Of a stretch of DNA of 64,000 bases, positions 22,471 through 30,355 are shown piece after piece; the stretch's first letter is position 1, and the number at the start of each line of letters is the position of its first letter. Source of the stretch: Porphyrobacter sp. CACIAM 03H1 (GTDB lineage: Bacteria > Pseudomonadota > Alphaproteobacteria > Sphingomonadales > Sphingomonadaceae); NCBI RefSeq assembly GCF_002215495.1, contig NZ_CP021378.1:3178659-3242658 (forward strand), read 5' to 3'. The position numbers and the translations under genes were made by a program. Under the pieces are notes generated by a model, which saw only the letters and a list, made by a program, of their open reading frames with translations, was not told where the DNA came from and made no database searches.

Positions 22471-24612
22471 TCAGCCGCGCATCCAGGTGTGGTACTTCTC
22501 GACCCACCTCAGCAGGCCCTCGGGCTTGTTGGCGCGCTTCCAGTTGCCGGCGGCGAACTTGTTGGCCTCGGCCATGGTCGGGTAGGAGTGGATCGTGCCG
22601 AGGATCTTGTTGAGGCCGATACCGTGCTTCATCGCCAGGACGTATTCGGCCAGCAATTCGCCCGCGTGGGCGCCGACGATGGTGGCGCCGAGGATCTTGT
22701 CCTTGCCGCCTGCCGGGGTGAGCACCTTGACGAAGCCCTTGGTCTCGCTCTCGGCGATGGCGCGGTCGAGATCGTCGAGTTCGTAGCGCGTCACCTCGAC
22801 CGCGATGCCCTGCTCTGCCGCCTCGCGCTCGTTCAGCCCGACGCGCGCGACCTCGGGGTCGAGGAAGGTGACGGCGGGGACCACGCGGTAATCGGCCTTG
22901 AACTTGCGGAAGGTGCCGAACAGCGCGTTGACGCTGGCATACCATGCCTGGTGGCTGGCGGTGTGGGTGAACTGGTAGGGGCCCGCCACATCGCCGGCAG
23001 CGAAGATGTTGGGGAATTTGGTCGCGAGGAATTCGTCGGTGGTCACGGTCTTGCCCGTGTCGACGCCGATGTCCTCGAGCCCGAAGCCGGTCAGCCGCGC
23101 CTTTCTGCCGATGGCGACGATCAGCGCGTCGAAAGCGATCCGAACCTCGCCCCCGTCATGCTCCGCGACCAACTCCCGCTGCTCGATCCGCACCGCCTTG
23201 TGGCCGGTGAGGACGCGGACCCCGTCCGCCTCCAGCACCTCGCGCGCGAGCGCCGAAACGTCGGCATCCTCGCGCCCGAGCAGGCTGTCGGCCATCTCGA
23301 CCTGCGTCACCTCGGAGCCGAGCCGCGCCAGCGCCTGCGACAATTCGCACCCGATCGGCCCGCCGCCCAGCACCGCGACCCGCTGCGGTGCCGCGTCCAT
23401 TTGCGCGAAGGCCTGCCACATGGTCTCGCTGGTGAGGTATCCGCTCTCCTCGATCCCCGGGATCGGCGGCACGACCGGCTCGGCCCCGCTGGCGATGATG
23501 ATGCTGCGCGTCGTCAGCCTTTGCGTGCCGCCGTCATTGAGCGCGATCTCGACCGTCCACGGGTCTATGATCTTCGCATAGCCCTTGACCACGTCGACCC
23601 CGAGACCGGTGTAGCGTTCGACGCTGTCGTGCGGCTCGATCGCCTTGATGGTGTCCAGCACCCGCGCGATCACCGCCTTGAAGGGCACCTCCGGCTCCAC
23701 CGCCGCCAGCCCGTAGCGGTCGGCATGGCGCATCGTGGCGGCGACCTTGGCGCTCTTGATGATCGCCTTCGACGGCACGCATCCGGTGTTGAGGCAGTCC
23801 CCGCCCATTTCGTGCGCCTCGACCAGCGTCACCTTGGCCTTCACCGTCGCGGCGATATAGGCCGAGACGAGGCCCGCCGAACCCGCGCCGATCACCACCA
23901 GATTGCGGTCGAATTTCCTGGGGCGCCGGAACCCGGCATAGACCTTGCGCCGCTTGATCAGCCCGATGATCCCCTTGGCGATCCACGGCACGATGCCGAG
24001 CAACACGAAGCTCCCCAGCACCGCCGGCGAGGCGATGCCCGACAGGCTGTCGATCCGCGCCAGCTGGGTGCCCGCGTTGACGTAGACGATGGTGCCGAGC
24101 AGCATGCCGATCTGGCTCACCCACATGAAGGTAAGCGTGCGGATGCGGGTCAGGCCCATGACGAGGTTGACCATGAAGAAGGGGAAGACCGGGATCATCC
24201 GTAGCGAGAAAAGGTAGAACGCCCCGTCGCGCTCCAGCCCGGCGTTGATCGCCTTCAGCCGCTCGCCGAAGCGCGCCTCGATGCTGTCGCGCAGCACGTA
24301 GCGCGAGGACAGGAAGGCGAGCGTCGCCCCGATGGTCGAGGCGAAGGAGACGATCACCGTGCCCCACACCACGCCGAACAGGGCGCCCGCCGCCAGCGTC
24401 ATGATCGCCGCGCCGGGGAAGGACGCGGCGGTGACGACGACATAGGCGAGGAAGAACCCGGCGACCACCACCAGCGGATTGTCGCGCTGGAAGGCGGCCG
24501 TGCCGGCAGCAAGCGCCTTCACGCCCTCGAGCGTCAGGTATTGCCCGAGGTCGAAGGCGAAATAGGCGGCGGCAAGCGCGGCCAGAACGGCGATGATGGC
24601 AAGCTTCTTCAC
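22471..24612 (-). CDS. VTT-domain membrane protein fused to a flavin disulfide reductase
   Basis: A 713-aa protein starting at GTG 24612. Residues 1-220 carry a TVP38/TMEM64 (VTT/DedA-like) membrane domain, including FPGAAIMTLAAGALFG and FFMVNLVMGLT. Residues about 236-713 form a class I pyridine nucleotide-disulfide reductase: FAD motif GAGSAG, redox pair C273/C278 in GGDCLNTGCVPSK, NAD motif VLGGGPIGCE and a C-terminal HSYPTMAEA with the catalytic histidine. It resembles mercuric/dihydrolipoyl reductases tied to the membrane. The substrate is unknown. It is in the same strand and direction as the flavoprotein upstream. Confidence 0.88.
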   Translation of the reverse strand: MKKLAIIAVLAALAAAYFAFDLGQYLTLEGVKALAAGTAAFQRDNPLVVVAGFFLAYVVVTAASFPGAAIMTLAAGALFGVVWGTVIVSFASTIGATLAFLSSRYVLRDSIEARFGERLKAINAGLERDGAFYLFSLRMIPVFPFFMVNLVMGLTRIRTLTFMWVSQIGMLLGTIVYVNAGTQLARIDSLSGIASPAVLGSFVLLGIVPWIAKGIIGLIKRRKVYAGFRRPRKFDRNLVVIGAGSAGLVSAYIAATVKAKVTLVEAHEMGGDCLNTGCVPSKAIIKSAKVAATMRHADRYGLAAVEPEVPFKAVIARVLDTIKAIEPHDSVERYTGLGVDVVKGYAKIIDPWTVEIALNDGGTQRLTTRSIIIASGAEPVVPPIPGIEESGYLTSETMWQAFAQMDAAPQRVAVLGGGPIGCELSQALARLGSEVTQVEMADSLLGREDADVSALAREVLEADGVRVLTGHKAVRIEQRELVAEHDGGEVRIAFDALIVAIGRKARLTGFGLEDIGVDTGKTVTTDEFLATKFPNIFAAGDVAGPYQFTHTASHQAWYASVNALFGTFRKFKADYRVVPAVTFLDPEVARVGLNEREAAEQGIAVEVTRYELDDLDRAIAESETKGFVKVLTPAGGKDKILGATIVGAHAGELLAEYVLAMKHGIGLNKILGTIHSYPTMAEANKFAAGNWKRANKPEGLLRWVEKYHTWMRG

Positions 24613-24654: not shown

Positions 24655-25791
24655 TTACACGCCTCTTGCGAGGGCGGCGTATTCCGCGATCCAGCCTTTA
24701 TCTATCCTGTGCTTCCAGGCGAGCACCCAGCGCCCCTCGGCAACGAGAGGACCGTAGCTCGCAATCGCGCGCCCGTCGCCGGTGTTCATGAGGTAGAGGC
24801 TGTGGCGGCGCGGGCGGTAGGCGGCGCGCGGCGGCTCGCCTGCGAGGAGGCTTCGCAGGTTGGCGGCGATCACGGGTCCGGCGAAGACGGCATGGACGCC
24901 CGATCGGGCAAGCGGCCGGTCGGTGCGCGCGGCGGCGTCCCCGGCGGCGAGAATGTGCGAGTGCGAGGTTGATCGCTGGTGGGCGTCGACCGCGATGAAG
25001 CCGCTTCCATCTGTGGCGATACCGCTCGCGCGCACCCAGGCGGGCGCGGCGCTGCCGGTGGCAGCGATGACGAGCTGCGCTGGTTCGAGCGATTGCCCGT
25101 CCGCGACCAGCGCCCCGTCCGTAAAGCGCGCCTCGGCGGCGATCACCGTGATCCCCTGGCGTGCAAGGGCGGTGGCGACCCGCCTGCGGACCCTGTCGGC
25201 AAAGCCGGGGAGCAGCCCGCCCGCGCCGGTCACCAGCACCACGTCGGGCCGGAGGTCGGCGTCAGCCATGTTGCGCAGCCCGAAGGCGATCTCCACGCCC
25301 CCCGCCCCGCCACCCGCCACGATGATGCGGGCAGGGATCTGCCCCGAGGCGCGCAGGTCGGCGAGGCGCTGCACGAAGGCACCGATAGGGCGCACCTCCA
25401 GAAGGCGCGGGTCCGCGCCGAGCAGCGCCGCCCCCTGCCCCTCGCCGCCGGTGTCGAAGGAGGCGATATCGAAGGCGATCCGCCCGCCCGCCGCCGTGGT
25501 CACCACCCGCGCGTCGGGATCAAGCGCCGCGAAGCGATCGAGCACCAGCTCCGCCCCGGCGCGCGCCGCGAGCGCGCCAAGGTCGACCACCCCCTCGTCC
25601 TCCGCGTGCTGGCCCGCAAGCCAGCCGGGGACCATCCCCGAATAGCGCAAGGCCGGCTCCGGGGTGAGCAGCACCCGGCGCGCCGCGGCGGGCGGGCCGC
25701 GGCGGACCCAGTCGGCCAGCACCGCGACATGGGCATGGCCCCCGCCCACCAGCAGCACCGTGCCTGCCTCGCCTGCCTGTTTTCCTGCCAT
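24655..25791 (-). CDS. NDH-2/SelD-N-like FAD-dependent oxidoreductase
   Basis: A 378-aa protein; ATG 25791 (GTG 25794 possible). FAD motif VLLVGGGHAH at the start, second nucleotide motif IIVAGGGAGGVE near 160, and LAAGDAAA near 290. The organisation resembles type II NADH dehydrogenases and the oxidoreductase domain fused to SelD in some bacteria. No C-terminal membrane anchor is obvious. It probably works with the VTT-reductase fusion encoded 42 bp downstream. Confidence 0.75.
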   Translation of the reverse strand: MAGKQAGEAGTVLLVGGGHAHVAVLADWVRRGPPAAARRVLLTPEPALRYSGMVPGWLAGQHAEDEGVVDLGALAARAGAELVLDRFAALDPDARVVTTAAGGRIAFDIASFDTGGEGQGAALLGADPRLLEVRPIGAFVQRLADLRASGQIPARIIVAGGGAGGVEIAFGLRNMADADLRPDVVLVTGAGGLLPGFADRVRRRVATALARQGITVIAAEARFTDGALVADGQSLEPAQLVIAATGSAAPAWVRASGIATDGSGFIAVDAHQRSTSHSHILAAGDAAARTDRPLARSGVHAVFAGPVIAANLRSLLAGEPPRAAYRPRRHSLYLMNTGDGRAIASYGPLVAEGRWVLAWKHRIDKGWIAEYAALARGV

Positions 25792-26058
25792 CACCTGCGT
25801 ATCATTGCCCGTGGTTCAGCAACCCGCAAGCTTTGCGCGCTAACGGGCGTGACTGATACTTTATTACCTCTCATCGCTTCTTGCAGACATATATCTTCAG
25901 GAATTTGAACATTATCCCCGCAGCGGAACCGCGGGCGCGCTCGACGATTGATCGCTTGCGGCGCGGCGTGGTTGCAATAGATGCAAAATTGCTCCTGCAC
26001 GCGCCATCCGGCCGGGCATCGGATCGCTTGAACACAGGTTTCGGACGGAAAGGCTGCC

Positions 26059-27804
26059 ATGGCAGGTGAAGGCCAAAGTTACGGCTCCAAGCTATCGCTG
26101 GTGAAGTTCTTCAGGATCTTCCTCGATATCCTGAAGCCCGAGGCGAACTTCTACTGGCTCGCCGCCGTCTACGGGATTGGCATCAGCCTGCTTTCGCTGG
26201 CGACCCCGATCTCGGTGCAGATGCTGATCAACACCATCGCCAACACCGCCATGCGCGCGCCGCTGGTGGTGCTGACGCTGACGCTGTTCGGCCTGCTGCT
26301 GATCTCGAGCTTGCTCTATGCCCTGCGCGTCCACCTGATGGAGATCTTCGCCCGCCGCTTCTATGCGCGGATGGTGGCCGAGATCTCGCTGATCTCGGTC
26401 TATGCCCAGAACCCCTTCTTCTCCGACGTGAAGAAGGGCCCGCTGTTCAACCGCTATTTCGACGTGGTCTATGTCCAGACCGCGATCCCGATCCTGTTCA
26501 TCGGCGGCTTCACCACGCTGCTGCAGATCGCGGTCGGCTTCGTGCTGGTGAGCCTCTACCACCCCTATTTCCTCGGCTTCACGCTGGTGATGATCGCGCT
26601 GATCTGGATCGTCTGGCTGGCATGGGGTGCCCGCGCGCTGCGCACCGGGGTGGATGTCAGCCACGCCAAGCACGCCACCGCCGCCTGGCTGGAGAGCATC
26701 GGCGGCTCCAACGGCTTCTTCAAGTCGCAGCGCCGCATCGACTACGCGCTCGACAAGACCGACGATCACACCCGCGACTACATCGTCCAGCGCAAGCGCC
26801 ACTTCCGCCACCTGTTCTCGCAGACCATCGCCTTCCTGGTGATGTATGCCGCGGCGAGCGCGGCACTGCTCGGACTGGGCGGCTGGCTGGTGATCGAGAA
26901 CGAGCTGACCCTCGGCCAGCTGGTTGCCGCCGAGCTGGTGCTCTCGGCCGCCTTCCTGGGCGTCTCGCAGCTCGGCAGCTATCTCGGCTATTTCTACGAC
27001 CTCTTCGCCGCGGTCGAGGAAATCTCGCACTTCTACGATGTCGAGCAGGAACAGCCCAAGGGCGCCGATCCCTTCGACGGGCCGGACCACACCATCGTCA
27101 TGAACGGCGTGCGCGGAAAGGCGCGGCACGAGGAAGTGCAGTTCGACCTCGAGATTCCCTCGGGCGCGATCATCATGGCCTCGGCCAGCCATCACGGGGT
27201 GCAGCGGCTGTTCACCAACCTGCTGAAGATGCACGAACTGCCGAAGGGCGGGATCGCGACGCTCGGCGACATCGACATGAAGGCGATCGAGGCGCACCAC
27301 CTGCGCAAGAACGTCCACGTGCTTGACCGGCCCAGCATCGTCGAGATGACGATCCGCGAATATCTCGCCCTGTCCTGCCCCGACACCGCGCCGCAGCGGA
27401 TGCTCGGCGCGCTCGAGACGGTGGGTCTCGCCGGCACCATCGCGACGCTGGAAAAGGGCCTCGACACCCCGCTCGCGGCAACCGGCTTTCCGCTCTCGGC
27501 GGTCGAACTCCAGCAGCTGAAGCTCGCCAACGCCCTGCTCGAACGCCCGCGCATCCTTGTGCTTAGCCGGTTGTTCGACCTGCTCGAGCCCGAACCCATC
27601 GCCCGTGCCGTCGCCGAACTGCGGTCGCAGGCCTATTCGACCGTGATCTACTTCTCGGGCCGCCGCATCGATCTCGGTTTCGACCGCTTCCTCTATCTCG
27701 AGGCGAGGCAGCAGCGCTATTTCGGCAGCTTCGAGGAATTCACCGCGGCCAAGACCCGCTCCGCGCCGCCGCCGGGCGAGCCGCTCAGCAAGGGAGACGC
27801 GTGA
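26059..27804 (+). CDS. ABC-exporter-like protein with a catalytically degenerate ATPase domain
   Basis: A 581-aa protein with a six-helix exporter-type membrane domain (about 25-320) and an ABC-type nucleotide-binding fold (about 345-565). RBS ACGGAAAGG precedes ATG 26059. All catalytic motifs are changed: Walker A reads ASASHHGVQ (374-382) with no GKS/T; the Q-loop glutamine is D423; the signature reads LSAVELQQLKLAN (479-491); Walker B D/E are S503/R504; the H-loop histidine is G534. The surrounding fold (RPRILVLS, GLDTPLAATG) is retained and the frame is intact, so it looks like a functional pseudoATPase rather than a decayed gene. It is followed by HlyD-type and TolC-type genes as in type I secretion. 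Confidence 0.85.
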   Translation: MAGEGQSYGSKLSLVKFFRIFLDILKPEANFYWLAAVYGIGISLLSLATPISVQMLINTIANTAMRAPLVVLTLTLFGLLLISSLLYALRVHLMEIFARRFYARMVAEISLISVYAQNPFFSDVKKGPLFNRYFDVVYVQTAIPILFIGGFTTLLQIAVGFVLVSLYHPYFLGFTLVMIALIWIVWLAWGARALRTGVDVSHAKHATAAWLESIGGSNGFFKSQRRIDYALDKTDDHTRDYIVQRKRHFRHLFSQTIAFLVMYAAASAALLGLGGWLVIENELTLGQLVAAELVLSAAFLGVSQLGSYLGYFYDLFAAVEEISHFYDVEQEQPKGADPFDGPDHTIVMNGVRGKARHEEVQFDLEIPSGAIIMASASHHGVQRLFTNLLKMHELPKGGIATLGDIDMKAIEAHHLRKNVHVLDRPSIVEMTIREYLALSCPDTAPQRMLGALETVGLAGTIATLEKGLDTPLAATGFPLSAVELQQLKLANALLERPRILVLSRLFDLLEPEPIARAVAELRSQAYSTVIYFSGRRIDLGFDRFLYLEARQQRYFGSFEEFTAAKTRSAPPPGEPLSKGDA

Positions 27805-28841
27805 CCATGGCGACGCTCAAGGAGGACATGGCGCACTTCACCACGCTCGAATCGATCCGCACGCCGCGGGTCATGCGTGTGGTGTTCTTCATGCTGCTGG
27901 CGGCGCTGGTGATCACCGTCGCCTTCCTGATCTACGTCCCCTGGGTGCAGACCACCTCGGGCCGCGGGGTGGTGACGACGCTCAGCCCCAACGAGCGCAA
28001 GCAGGACATCAACGCCCTGGTGCCGGGCCGGATCGAGGAATGGTACGTGCGTGACGGCTCGTCGGTGAAGAAGGGCGATCCGATCGTCCGCATCGCCGAC
28101 ATCGACCCCAACCTGATCGAGCGCCTCCAGGCCGAACGCCGCCAGATCGAGCTGCAGCTGGCCGCCGCCCAGTCGGCGCTCGCGACCGCCCAGATCGACG
28201 AGCGGCGCTCGCGCGAGCTGTTCCAGGCCGGGCTTGCGGCGCGGCGCGATTACGAACTGGCGCAGATCAAGGTGGCCGACATGCAGGGCCGCGTCGCCGC
28301 CGCCCAGGCCGATCTCAACCGCGCCGATGTCAACATCTCGCGCCAGTCGGTGCAGATCGTGCGCGCACCGCGCGACGGCTTCATCCAGAGCCTCAACGCG
28401 GGCGATGCGGCGACGGTGGTGAAGGCGGGCGACGTGCTCGCCACCTTCGTGCCCGACGGCGCGGTGCGCGTAATCGAGATCTTCATCGACGGGCGCGACG
28501 TCGCGCTGGTGCGCCCGGGCGACAAGACCCGCATCCAGTTCGAAGGCTGGCCCGCGGTGCAGTTCTCCGGCTGGCCCTCGGTCGCGGTCGGCACCTTCGG
28601 GGGCCGCGTGATCACTGTCGACCAGTCGGCGCAGTCCAACGGCCGCTTCCGCGTGCTGATCGCCGAGGACAAGCTCGACGGCTATGGCTGGCCCGAGGAA
28701 CGCTACGTCCGCTTCGGCGCGGCGGTGCAGGCTTGGGTGCTGCTCGAGACCGTGCCGGTGGGCTACGAGATCTGGCGCCAGCTCAACAACTTCCCGCCCG
28801 AACTGACGGCACCGCCGTCAAGCGGGGGGTCGGCGAACTGA
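27801..28841 (+). CDS. HlyD-family periplasmic adaptor
   Basis: A 346-aa protein; GTG 27801 overlaps the previous stop (GTGA), with ATG 27807 as alternative. It has a single N-terminal membrane helix (about 25-50), a split biotinyl-lipoyl domain (VPGRIEEWYVRDGSSVKKGD and VRAPRDGFIQSL), a coiled-coil hairpin of about 85 residues between them, and a beta-barrel domain. It would connect the inner-membrane ABC-like protein to the TolC-type channel. Translational coupling to the ABC-like gene argues the two act together. Confidence 0.88.
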   Translation: MTMATLKEDMAHFTTLESIRTPRVMRVVFFMLLAALVITVAFLIYVPWVQTTSGRGVVTTLSPNERKQDINALVPGRIEEWYVRDGSSVKKGDPIVRIADIDPNLIERLQAERRQIELQLAAAQSALATAQIDERRSRELFQAGLAARRDYELAQIKVADMQGRVAAAQADLNRADVNISRQSVQIVRAPRDGFIQSLNAGDAATVVKAGDVLATFVPDGAVRVIEIFIDGRDVALVRPGDKTRIQFEGWPAVQFSGWPSVAVGTFGGRVITVDQSAQSNGRFRVLIAEDKLDGYGWPEERYVRFGAAVQAWVLLETVPVGYEIWRQLNNFPPELTAPPSSGGSAN

Positions 28842-28843
28842 CG

Positions 28844-30355
28844 ATGGTGCGAAGTCCCGCCTTGCCGCGGCCGGGCGCGCTGCCCGGCCCCCGATTGATC
28901 GGCGCGGCGGCGCTGGCGCTGGCGCTCGCGCTTGTCCCTGTGCCGGTTACCGCGCAGGATATCGCGCCCGTCGGCGATCCGATCGAGGTGGCGATCACCA
29001 CCGGACCGCTGCTGCCCGAGGAAGTGCTGCGCTCCTCCGCGCTGACCTTCCCGTCGATCCTCGAGGCCTTCGAGCGCGAGGCCGCGGCCCGCTCCGACCA
29101 GCTCGCCGCCGACGGGGCCTTCGACCTGATGCTGAAGGGCGAGTATTACGACCGCCTGACCGGCTTCTATTCCGGCGGCTTCGGCAAGGTCGAGGCGCGC
29201 CAGCCGCTCAGGCCCTATGGCGCGGAAGTCTACGGCTCGTACCGCGTCTCCAACGGCGATTTCCCGACCTACGAGAACTACAACTACACCAACGCTCTCG
29301 GCGAGGCGAAGGTCGGCGCGCTGTTCTCGCTGCTGCGCAACCGCGACATCGACAGCCGCCGCTTCGCGATCGAGGACACCCGCCTCGCCGCCGCCCAGGC
29401 GCAGATTGACGTGATGCTGGTGCGCCTCAACGTCCAGCACGAGGCGCTGCGCGCCTATTGGCGCTGGGTCGCAGCCGGCGAGGAGATCCGCGTCTTCGAG
29501 GAACTGCTCGAGATCGCCGAGGCGCGCCAGATCGGCCTCGCCCGCGAGGTCGGCGAAGGCGCGCGGGCGCGCATCGCCCTGACGGAGAACGAGCGCAACC
29601 TGCTCAACCGCCGCGCGCGGCTGGAGGAGGCCAAGCGCAACTTCGCGACCGCTGCCAACAGCCTTGCCTTCTATCTGCGCGGGTCGAACGGGCAGATGAT
29701 CGTTCCGACCCGCGAGCAGCTGCCGGACCTGTCGCGGATGAACGGTATCGCCCCGGTCGATACGCTGGTGGCCAATCCGATGAGCGAGGTGATCCAGAGC
29801 CGGCCCGAACTCACCGTCTTCAAGGTCGCGATCGAGCGCGCCAACAACCGCATCGCGCTGCGCCGCAACGACCTGCAACCCTCGCTCAATGCCAGCGTCG
29901 AGCTGTCGCGCGATTTCGGCCAGCTCGGGCCGGGCGGACCGGGGTTCGATTCGACCGACACGGTGGTCGGCCTGACCTTTTCGGTGCCGCTCCAGCGTCG
30001 CGAAGCGCGCGGTCGCCTCCAGCGCGCCGAGGCCGAACTGCGCGAGACCGAGCTGCGCCAGCGTCGCATCGCCGACCAGATCACGATGGAGCTCGGCAAT
30101 ATCATCGAGAACCTCACCGCCGCGCTCAAGATCGCCGATCTGGCCGAGGCCGAGGTCAAGCAGGCCAACGCGATGGTCCAGGCCGAGCGCACGCGCTTCC
30201 GGCTCGGGGCAGGCGAGTTCTTCCTGGTCAACCAGCGCGAGGAGGACGCCGCCAACGCCCAGGTGAGCGCCATCCGCGCCGACCTCGCCGGCCGCCTCGC
30301 CGAGGCCAGCTACAACGCGGCGACGATGAACCTGAAGGCGCTGGGACTGGAGTAG
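28844..30355 (+). CDS. TolC-family outer-membrane channel protein
   Basis: A 503-aa protein with a signal peptide ending near VTAQD. The start at ATG 28844 is two bases after the adaptor stop. Two OEP-type repeats with long coiled-coil helices are visible (about 190-290 and 400-500). It is the outer-membrane exit duct of the tripartite apparatus. No substrate gene with RTX repeats is found in the window. It ends the operon; the next gene is convergent and only 7 bp away. Confidence 0.85.
   Translation: MVRSPALPRPGALPGPRLIGAAALALALALVPVPVTAQDIAPVGDPIEVAITTGPLLPEEVLRSSALTFPSILEAFEREAAARSDQLAADGAFDLMLKGEYYDRLTGFYSGGFGKVEARQPLRPYGAEVYGSYRVSNGDFPTYENYNYTNALGEAKVGALFSLLRNRDIDSRRFAIEDTRLAAAQAQIDVMLVRLNVQHEALRAYWRWVAAGEEIRVFEELLEIAEARQIGLAREVGEGARARIALTENERNLLNRRARLEEAKRNFATAANSLAFYLRGSNGQMIVPTREQLPDLSRMNGIAPVDTLVANPMSEVIQSRPELTVFKVAIERANNRIALRRNDLQPSLNASVELSRDFGQLGPGGPGFDSTDTVVGLTFSVPLQRREARGRLQRAEAELRETELRQRRIADQITMELGNIIENLTAALKIADLAEAEVKQANAMVQAERTRFRLGAGEFFLVNQREEDAANAQVSAIRADLAGRLAEASYNAATMNLKALGLE

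Follow-up and report, generated by a model that had tools for sequence, protein, structure and literature searches.

A candidate proton-driven tripartite exporter built around an ABC-type protein that gave up ATP hydrolysis

What can an ATP-binding cassette (ABC) exporter still do once the residues required for ATP hydrolysis have been replaced? The question is raised by an operon of Porphyrobacter sp. CACIAM 03H1, located in a 64,000-nucleotide stretch of contig NZ_CP021378.1 (hereafter the window), which encodes an ABC-exporter-type protein with a pseudo-ATPase domain (psABC), a HlyD-type periplasmic adaptor and a TolC-type outer-membrane channel (Table 1). The reading favored here, to which we give about an even chance as a whole, is a tripartite exporter whose inner-membrane component gave up ATP hydrolysis and is probably driven by protons through a glutamate of transmembrane helix 6 (TM6), E292. 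The loss of the motifs, the conservation and selection of the altered domain, the three-gene unit, the graded loss in sister clades and the family-wide presence of E292 are read from the sequences themselves; from these we infer the energy source and the cargo.

In psABC, the Walker A lysine, the Q-loop, the signature glycines, the Walker B aspartate, the catalytic glutamate and the H-loop are all replaced. An earlier note on this DNA had placed the changes at residues 373-382, D423, 479-491, S503/R504 and G534 of the ABC-like protein encoded by a co-oriented ABC-like/HlyD/TolC set; the genes are found as it described them, and the alignment agrees with its motif positions. Its argument that a normal exporter is unworkable without these residues is also sound as far as sequence can tell, and ATP-driven export by psABC in the normal manner is excluded on these grounds. 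The protein is still recognized by the ABC transmembrane model PF00664 (47.1 bits, cut-off 28), and its score with the ABC ATPase model PF00005 (18.8 bits) fails the cut-off of 25. About 200 residues of ABC-like domain remain, and they can be profile-aligned to the nucleotide-binding domains (NBDs) of solved structures.

The disappearance of all five motifs from a protein whose family normally needs them could signify that the gene has recently decayed into a pseudogene, or that the sequence is in error. The homologues compared are the best 120 of 2473, 1603 and 2054 matches (about 8000 candidates scored each time) and the best 80 of 567 related loci, with clade labels that rest on the names given to some of the listed proteins. 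Seven core residues were scored: the Walker A Lys, the Q-loop Gln, two signature Gly, the Walker B Asp, the catalytic Glu and the H-loop His. Clade A consists of 241 aligned rows (231 distinct sequences), database proteins and loci mixed and the window included; the rows L001 (the window itself), L005 (an antisense frame) and L164 (a fragment of 220 residues) were dropped before residues were counted. None of the seven residues is kept in 208 of the 241 rows, one in 32 and two in a single row; the canonical exporters keep all seven in 31 of 32 rows and six in the other. The degenerate form, whose conservation the earlier note had proposed to examine, is thus conserved, and a close homologue with intact motifs, which it would have taken as a sign of recent decay, occurs in none of the clade A rows. 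The substitutes are themselves nearly fixed in this clade (R383 in 233/241 rows, Asp or Glu at position 423 in 235/241, R424 in 237/241, E483 in 230/241, and D507 in 241/241).

The ratio of nonsynonymous to synonymous substitution rates (dN/dS) is well under 1: estimated by NG86 for 27 Erythrobacteraceae-type coding sequences (280 of 351 pairs, the other 71 being dropped as saturated), its median is 0.15 for the transmembrane domain and 0.19 for the pseudo-ATPase domain (range 0.03 to 0.58). Because the substitutes are near-fixed and dN/dS is low, the altered domain is selected as it is; judging from the coding sequences, it is under purifying selection in its altered form. That many sequences of various genomes have open frames and share these substitutions, and that 15 plasmid records contain relatives, likewise argues against decay. 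Recent decay is rejected by conservation and dN/dS, and sequencing error by the identical letters in many genomes; the probability that this gene is a pseudogene or an artefact is negligible, and the psABC group is almost certainly a conserved non-hydrolysing family.

Two sister clades of 121 rows each are altered to a lesser degree. Named members, among the matches listed, are Methylobacillus, Methylotenera and Nitrosomonas in clade B, and Methylotuvimicrobium, Methylobacter and Methylomonas in clade C. The Walker A Lys is kept in 121/121 rows of clade B and 119/121 of clade C, and the Walker B Asp in 114/121 and 119/121, respectively. The catalytic Glu survives in 6/121 and 8/121, the first signature Gly in none and three, the H-loop His in none and one, and the Q-loop Gln in neither clade. 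The best single protein of clades B and C retains four of the seven core residues; the three rows of clade D retain none, and the locus L045 two. According to established ABC biochemistry, such clade B and C proteins could bind but hardly hydrolyse ATP. The likely order of events is that hydrolysis was lost first and ATP binding later. The family is separated from 15 canonical rows in two quick trees made without bootstrap, one of the transmembrane domain (E292 column removed; Shimodaira-Hasegawa-like approximate likelihood ratio test, SH-aLRT, 99; long outgroup branches) and one of the pseudo-ATPase domain (motif columns removed; SH-aLRT 96.6), in the latter of which clade B is not one clade. 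A transmembrane-only profile (E <= 1e-20) had matches in two classes, in 11 of 323 genomes of the first and 3 of 241 of the second; every protein matched in these 14 genomes is included in the alignment, which shows no intact ATPase domain among them.

The gene order psABC, HlyD, TolC on one strand is found in 86 of the 86 loci in which all three genes are covered by more than 70%, among 93 examined, so that the linkage to the same partners about which the earlier note had asked is fixed there. Five of the other seven loci are cut by contig ends, and in L126 (clade B) and L180 (clade C) the channels are too diverged for the window query; a model scan recognizes the TolC-type protein of L126, and the channel of L180 is 54% identical to it. 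In two clade D stretches, listed outside the 93 loci, the adaptor gene adjoins and the adjacent DNA gave no match to the channel. The three proteins diverge in step, their pairwise distances being correlated (r 0.93; none of 500 permutations as high). As far as the sequences indicate, psABC, HlyD and TolC are likely to form a tripartite export system.

The earlier note had called the operon type I secretion-like. The HlyD/TolC arrangement supports this description; the short adaptor (346 residues), which reaches 89 bits (cut-off 95) under the RND adaptor model and 70 bits (cut-off 209) under the type I HlyD model, staying below both cut-offs but scoring higher with the former, and the lack of a recognized cargo do not. 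Secretion of a protein or bacteriocin, with ATP still used through an unrecognized site, would agree with the transmembrane profile of psABC matching BmrA, ComA, HlyB and PCAT1-type transporters among solved structures, and with the best solved match of the adaptor by E-value being a HlyD-type chain (8dck_C, from a HlyB complex, residues 174-255), followed by MacA and MexJ. The clade C proteins examined, in addition, are longer at the N terminus by about 150 residues, and 'peptidase domain-containing' is the name that some sources give them; however, Pfam finds no domain in this extension, and no C39 peptidase, in the five proteins scanned, and the hydrolysis residues are gone in nearly all clade C rows too. 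The type I secretion models score about 75 bits on psABC vs cut-offs of 693 (LssB) and 726 (HlyB), and the corresponding channel model 17 bits vs 225 on the TolC-type protein. The window contains no stop-to-stop frame of at least 80 codons with two or more RTX nonapeptides, the cargo kind searched for, in keeping with the remark in the earlier note that no RTX-like substrate is nearby. Classical protein secretion as the main role is rejected on the basis of model scores, adaptor length and the missing RTX repeats, and an ATP-using type I system is very unlikely. Efflux of a small molecule or peptide seems likelier, because the adaptor is short, the RND model scores higher and no cargo was recognized.

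The residue that may take over the role of ATP lies in the membrane. Position 292 is a glutamate in 487/487 aligned family rows and is acidic in 0/32 canonical exporters, which have Val (23), Asn (7), Ser (1) or Leu (1) instead; it is acidic in none of 39 ABC open reading frames (ORFs) with intact motifs, a set that largely overlaps the 32. Besides E292, no acid of the transmembrane domain is common to all clades (by a 95% single-letter criterion, which misses mixed Asp/Glu columns). In a profile alignment counted by hand, it corresponds to Phe 331 of ABCB1 (chain 6ujw_A), a TM6 position which we take to line the drug cavity, and BmrA has Ile at this place. Another residue, H168 near the TM3-TM4 turn, is fixed in clades A, C and D and in L045, and is Ser (120) or Asn (1) in clade B.

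The options considered in the earlier note left out a secondary-active, proton-driven exporter, which is now the leading idea because of the invariant E292 and of published precedents. SbmA is described as a transporter of ABC descent that is driven by protons and has a glutamate ladder (PMC13316013, in part). LmrA without its NBD acts as a proton-coupled transporter, in which E314 of TM6 is needed for delta-pH dependence (PMC2704374, in part), and dye export under a pH gradient is described for MsbA lacking its NBD (PMC4979069, in part). Under this scheme, the ancestor of psABC would be an ABC half-exporter in which hydrolysis disappeared first and ATP binding next, with the membrane domain and a recognizable cytoplasmic domain kept. 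A psABC homodimer might work by alternating access, with protonation of E292 replacing ATP as the driver and the proton gradient powering efflux. The pseudo-ATPase domains could remain as a fixed dimer clamp or gate scaffold, and a small molecule or peptide, not a large protein, would be the cargo.

Several observations weigh against this scheme. The clade A counts lean on near relatives, since 120 of the 241 rows are at least 84% identical to the psABC of the window; the locus rows of this clade reach down to about 35-36% identity, and the same kind of substitutions recurs there. E292 may serve instead in substrate binding, gating or adaptor contact, and a polar Asn occupies its place in seven of the 32 canonical exporters. 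A ladder of several conserved membrane acids, as in SbmA, was not seen across the clades under the same 95% criterion. E292 and LmrA E314, both glutamates of TM6, may occupy different positions, and psABC keeps its pseudo-ATPase domain, whereas SbmA lost the NBD and the coupling helices. As for a small-molecule cargo, among solved structures the adaptor matches the HlyD-type chain of 8dck best, with MacA and MexJ behind it. Proton drive through E292, as deduced from the alignments, is accordingly worded here as a tentative proposal, falling slightly short of an even chance.

Alternatively, psABC could be the dead half of a heterodimer, or be energised by an ATPase encoded elsewhere, either a housekeeping ABC exporter or a soluble NBD that acts in trans. 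Heterodimeric ABC exporters commonly have a degenerate site (PMC7756269, in part), and conservation persists in psABC both in the pseudo-ATPase domain and in charged residues of those loops that presumably face this domain. An intact ABC exporter gene is located upstream in 12 of 12 Xanthomonas loci, where this gene and then a LysR gene precede the psABC operon (e.g., L104:5031-6845, an exporter of the TIGR02204 type with an OxyR-like LysR protein, and similar places in the other 11). On the other hand, clade A has lost Walker A, and heterodimer halves usually keep their ATP-binding residues. Across 28 genomes of the genus, the presence of psABC is not accompanied by an additional intact ABC exporter gene: PF00664 genes (E <= 1e-5) number 3-6 in the 17 genomes with psABC (itself included) and 2-6 in the 11 without it. 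Only two such genes besides psABC are present in G185, G224, G236, G258 and G275, and two in total in the psABC-less G108, G182 and G212. These counts leave just three kinds of candidate for a partner in the genus: a housekeeping exporter, an unlinked soluble ATPase, or an ABC gene that PF00664 fails to detect.

The neighborhoods point the same way. A motif search with a simple gene caller, covering L046-L125 except L076 (L126-L135 and L180-L184 being outside the screen), detected no intact gene for an ABC exporter in the surrounding 8 kb or so, except in Xanthomonas. The ABC-type ORFs near the loci are one of 269 residues in L073 and UvrA-sized ones (about 980 residues) in L087, L088 and L093; a GPNGAGK ATPase gene is located about 7 kb away in L130. 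The suggestion of the earlier note that another ATPase energises the protein is thus weakened by the genus genomes and retains the intact Xanthomonas neighbor in its favor; likewise, the linked second ATPase that it had considered is missing from the screened non-Xanthomonas loci and present in the 12 Xanthomonas ones. A dedicated linked partner as a general explanation is rejected by the neighbor screen and the genus counts, the Xanthomonas loci notwithstanding, and energisation from elsewhere in any form is distinctly unlikely.

The old nucleotide site holds a conserved charged set (R383, D423, R424, E483, K488 and D507) that could bind an anion or another ligand. This would suit a passive or regulated conduit, sensor or scaffold, in which psABC gates the adaptor-TolC channel upon binding of a ligand in the cavity or the pseudo-nucleotide pocket. 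LysR regulators of different subfamilies adjoin the operon in several groups, which suggests a response to a signal. Of 74 loci for which upstream sequence is available, 22 (12 of them related Xanthomonas loci) have a LysR gene of one cluster at most 1.6 kb upstream, against nine others in 1102 kb, and the best models for single LysR proteins are OxyR (L085, L104 and L134), NhaR (L128) and LrhA (L127), all below the cut-offs. However, an operon with a fixed adaptor and a fixed channel is indicative of export, selection constrains the pseudo-ATPase domain slightly less than the membrane domain, and an open conduit through two membranes would presumably be costly to the cell. A conduit or sensor is unlikely, and proton-driven export is retained as the leading idea. 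A LysR gene also stands beside the operon in L128, L129 and L135, that of L128 scoring 190 bits with the NhaR model (cut-off 219). NhaR is a sodium/pH regulator, and this neighbor could hint at ion or pH stress.

The psABC system shares the ABC transmembrane domain and an operon with HlyD-type adaptor and TolC-type channel with type I secretion and peptide exporters (HlyB, LapB/LssB, PCAT1, and ComA), but differs from them in the lost hydrolysis motifs, E292, the short adaptor and the lack of a recognized cargo gene or peptidase domain. Like the SbmA/BacA (SLiPT) proton-driven peptide importers, it is derived from ABC exporters and is predicted to lack ATPase function; E292 would be the counterpart of their membrane glutamates as the likely proton site. 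SbmA, however, is an importer with several glutamates that lost the NBD and coupling helices (PMC13316013, in part), whereas psABC has a pseudo-NBD, one invariant Glu and export partners. In the Pfam scan of psABC, the matches at E <= 1 are limited to PF00664 and PF00005, with none to the SbmA/BacA family, which Pfam presumably holds. The NBD-less LmrA-MD and MsbA-MD are likewise ABC membrane domains working without ATP, as proposed for psABC, and a TM6 Glu matters in LmrA (PMC2704374, in part); these are laboratory truncations of intact transporters, while the change in psABC is natural and the altered domain is kept. Catalytic NBD residues are also replaced in heterodimeric ABC exporters with a degenerate site (TAP, the ABCC family, and CFTR), which keep one consensus site; in a psABC homodimer neither site would be workable, and no linked partner gene was found outside Xanthomonas in the loci screened. 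Tripartite drug efflux pumps of the MacAB-TolC and AcrAB-TolC type have similar kinds of adaptor and outer-membrane channel, but the inner-membrane part of the psABC system is neither an RND, an MFS nor a working ABC protein.

The presence of psABC is patchy: at E <= 1e-30, it occurs in 60 of 297 genomes of the order, in 17 of 397 genomes of the phylum (the draws overlap), and in 17 of the 28 genus genomes of the order draw. The closest named matches among those listed are from Porphyrobacter and Erythrobacter, and the named hosts among the loci listed include Sphingobium, Sphingomonas, Novosphingobium, Parvularcula, Halieaceae, Woeseiaceae and Xanthomonas. A Xanthomonas protein branches among sphingomonad ones in the transmembrane tree, and the 15 plasmid records with relatives are from sphingomonads; both suggest horizontal transfer.

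The combination of an ATP-dead ABC exporter, a pseudo-NBD, a TM6 Glu and HlyD and TolC partners was not recognized as described in the full-text open-access literature searched; its ingredients are known, and the combination was not found described there. It is conceivable, although we would not rate it as high as an even chance, that widespread undescribed tripartite exporters of Pseudomonadota abandoned ATP, coupling transport to protons by a TM6 Glu, losing first hydrolysis and then binding, and keeping the ATPase domain as a gate or scaffold. If so, the family would represent, in nature, successive steps between primary and secondary active transport. How such a conversion proceeds is an open question, addressed so far through SbmA, which has no ATPase domain, and truncated LmrA and MsbA. 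Here, living stages would be available: clades B and C, which by their sequences could bind and hardly hydrolyse ATP and survive in methylotrophs and methanotrophs, and clade A, with no nucleotide site. The family has adaptor and channel partners and a single conserved membrane glutamate, and with it the question becomes testable by simple mutants. There is also a warning for annotation, as several sources name psABC-type proteins 'ABC transporter ATP-binding protein'.

Table 1. Positions of the psABC operon and of its notable residues in the window
Feature	Position	Strand	Remarks
psABC, ABC-exporter-type protein, 581 aa	26059..27804	+	ATG start, GGAAAG upstream
psABC domains			transmembrane, about residues 20-335; pseudo-ATPase, about residues 345-545
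E292 codon, transmembrane helix 6	26932..26934	+	GQLVAAE; GQLIAAE in some
Former Walker A, residues 373-385, MASASHHGVQRLF	27175..27213	+	Lys place = Q382, Ser/Thr place = R383
D423 codon, Q-loop place	27325..27327	+	D in 217/241, E in 18/241 clade A rows
Former signature LSGGQ, now LSAVE, residues 479-483	27493..27507	+	
S503 and R504 codons, places of Walker B aspartate and catalytic glutamate	27565..27570	+	
D507 codon	27577..27579	+	Asp in 486/487 family rows (one gap); Ser or Gly in 32 canonical exporters
G534 codon, H-loop histidine place	27658..27660	+	
HlyD-type periplasmic adaptor	27801..28841	+	346 aa from GTG 27801; in-frame ATG 27807 = likely start
TolC/OEP-type outer-membrane channel, 503 aa	28844..30355	+	ATG start
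Intergenic region common to psABC and a divergent gene	25795..26058	+	conserved blocks, e.g., GATTGATCGCTTGCGGCGCGG...GTTGCAATAGATGCA

The three co-oriented genes overlap or nearly touch, the GTG of the adaptor gene overlapping the psABC stop, and form an operon. The intergenic region upstream is probably its promoter, and the blocks listed in Table 1 are kept between the window and ten close relatives. A LysR-type box (TTGCA N5 TGCAA) upstream of psABC was dropped, as its perfect form occurs in the window only, among 39 upstream regions. In Novosphingobium sp. ST904 (L107:9643-10730), the adaptor gene is apparently split into two frames. The whole genome of Porphyrobacter sp. CACIAM 03H1 gives no LssB-type (TIGR03375) match at E <= 1e-100, and 75 of the 120 genomes searched have one.

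Divergent from the operon, positions 24655-25794 (minus strand) encode an oxidoreductase of the TIGR03169 'N-terminal to SelD' type (271 bits, below the cut-off of 310), and a similarity cluster of genes resembling it is represented in 19 of 80 loci (e.g., L046, L048, and L049). Farther along the same strand (22471-24612), one frame of 713 residues fuses a VTT (TVP38-like membrane) domain to a MerA/lipoamide-dehydrogenase-like oxidoreductase.

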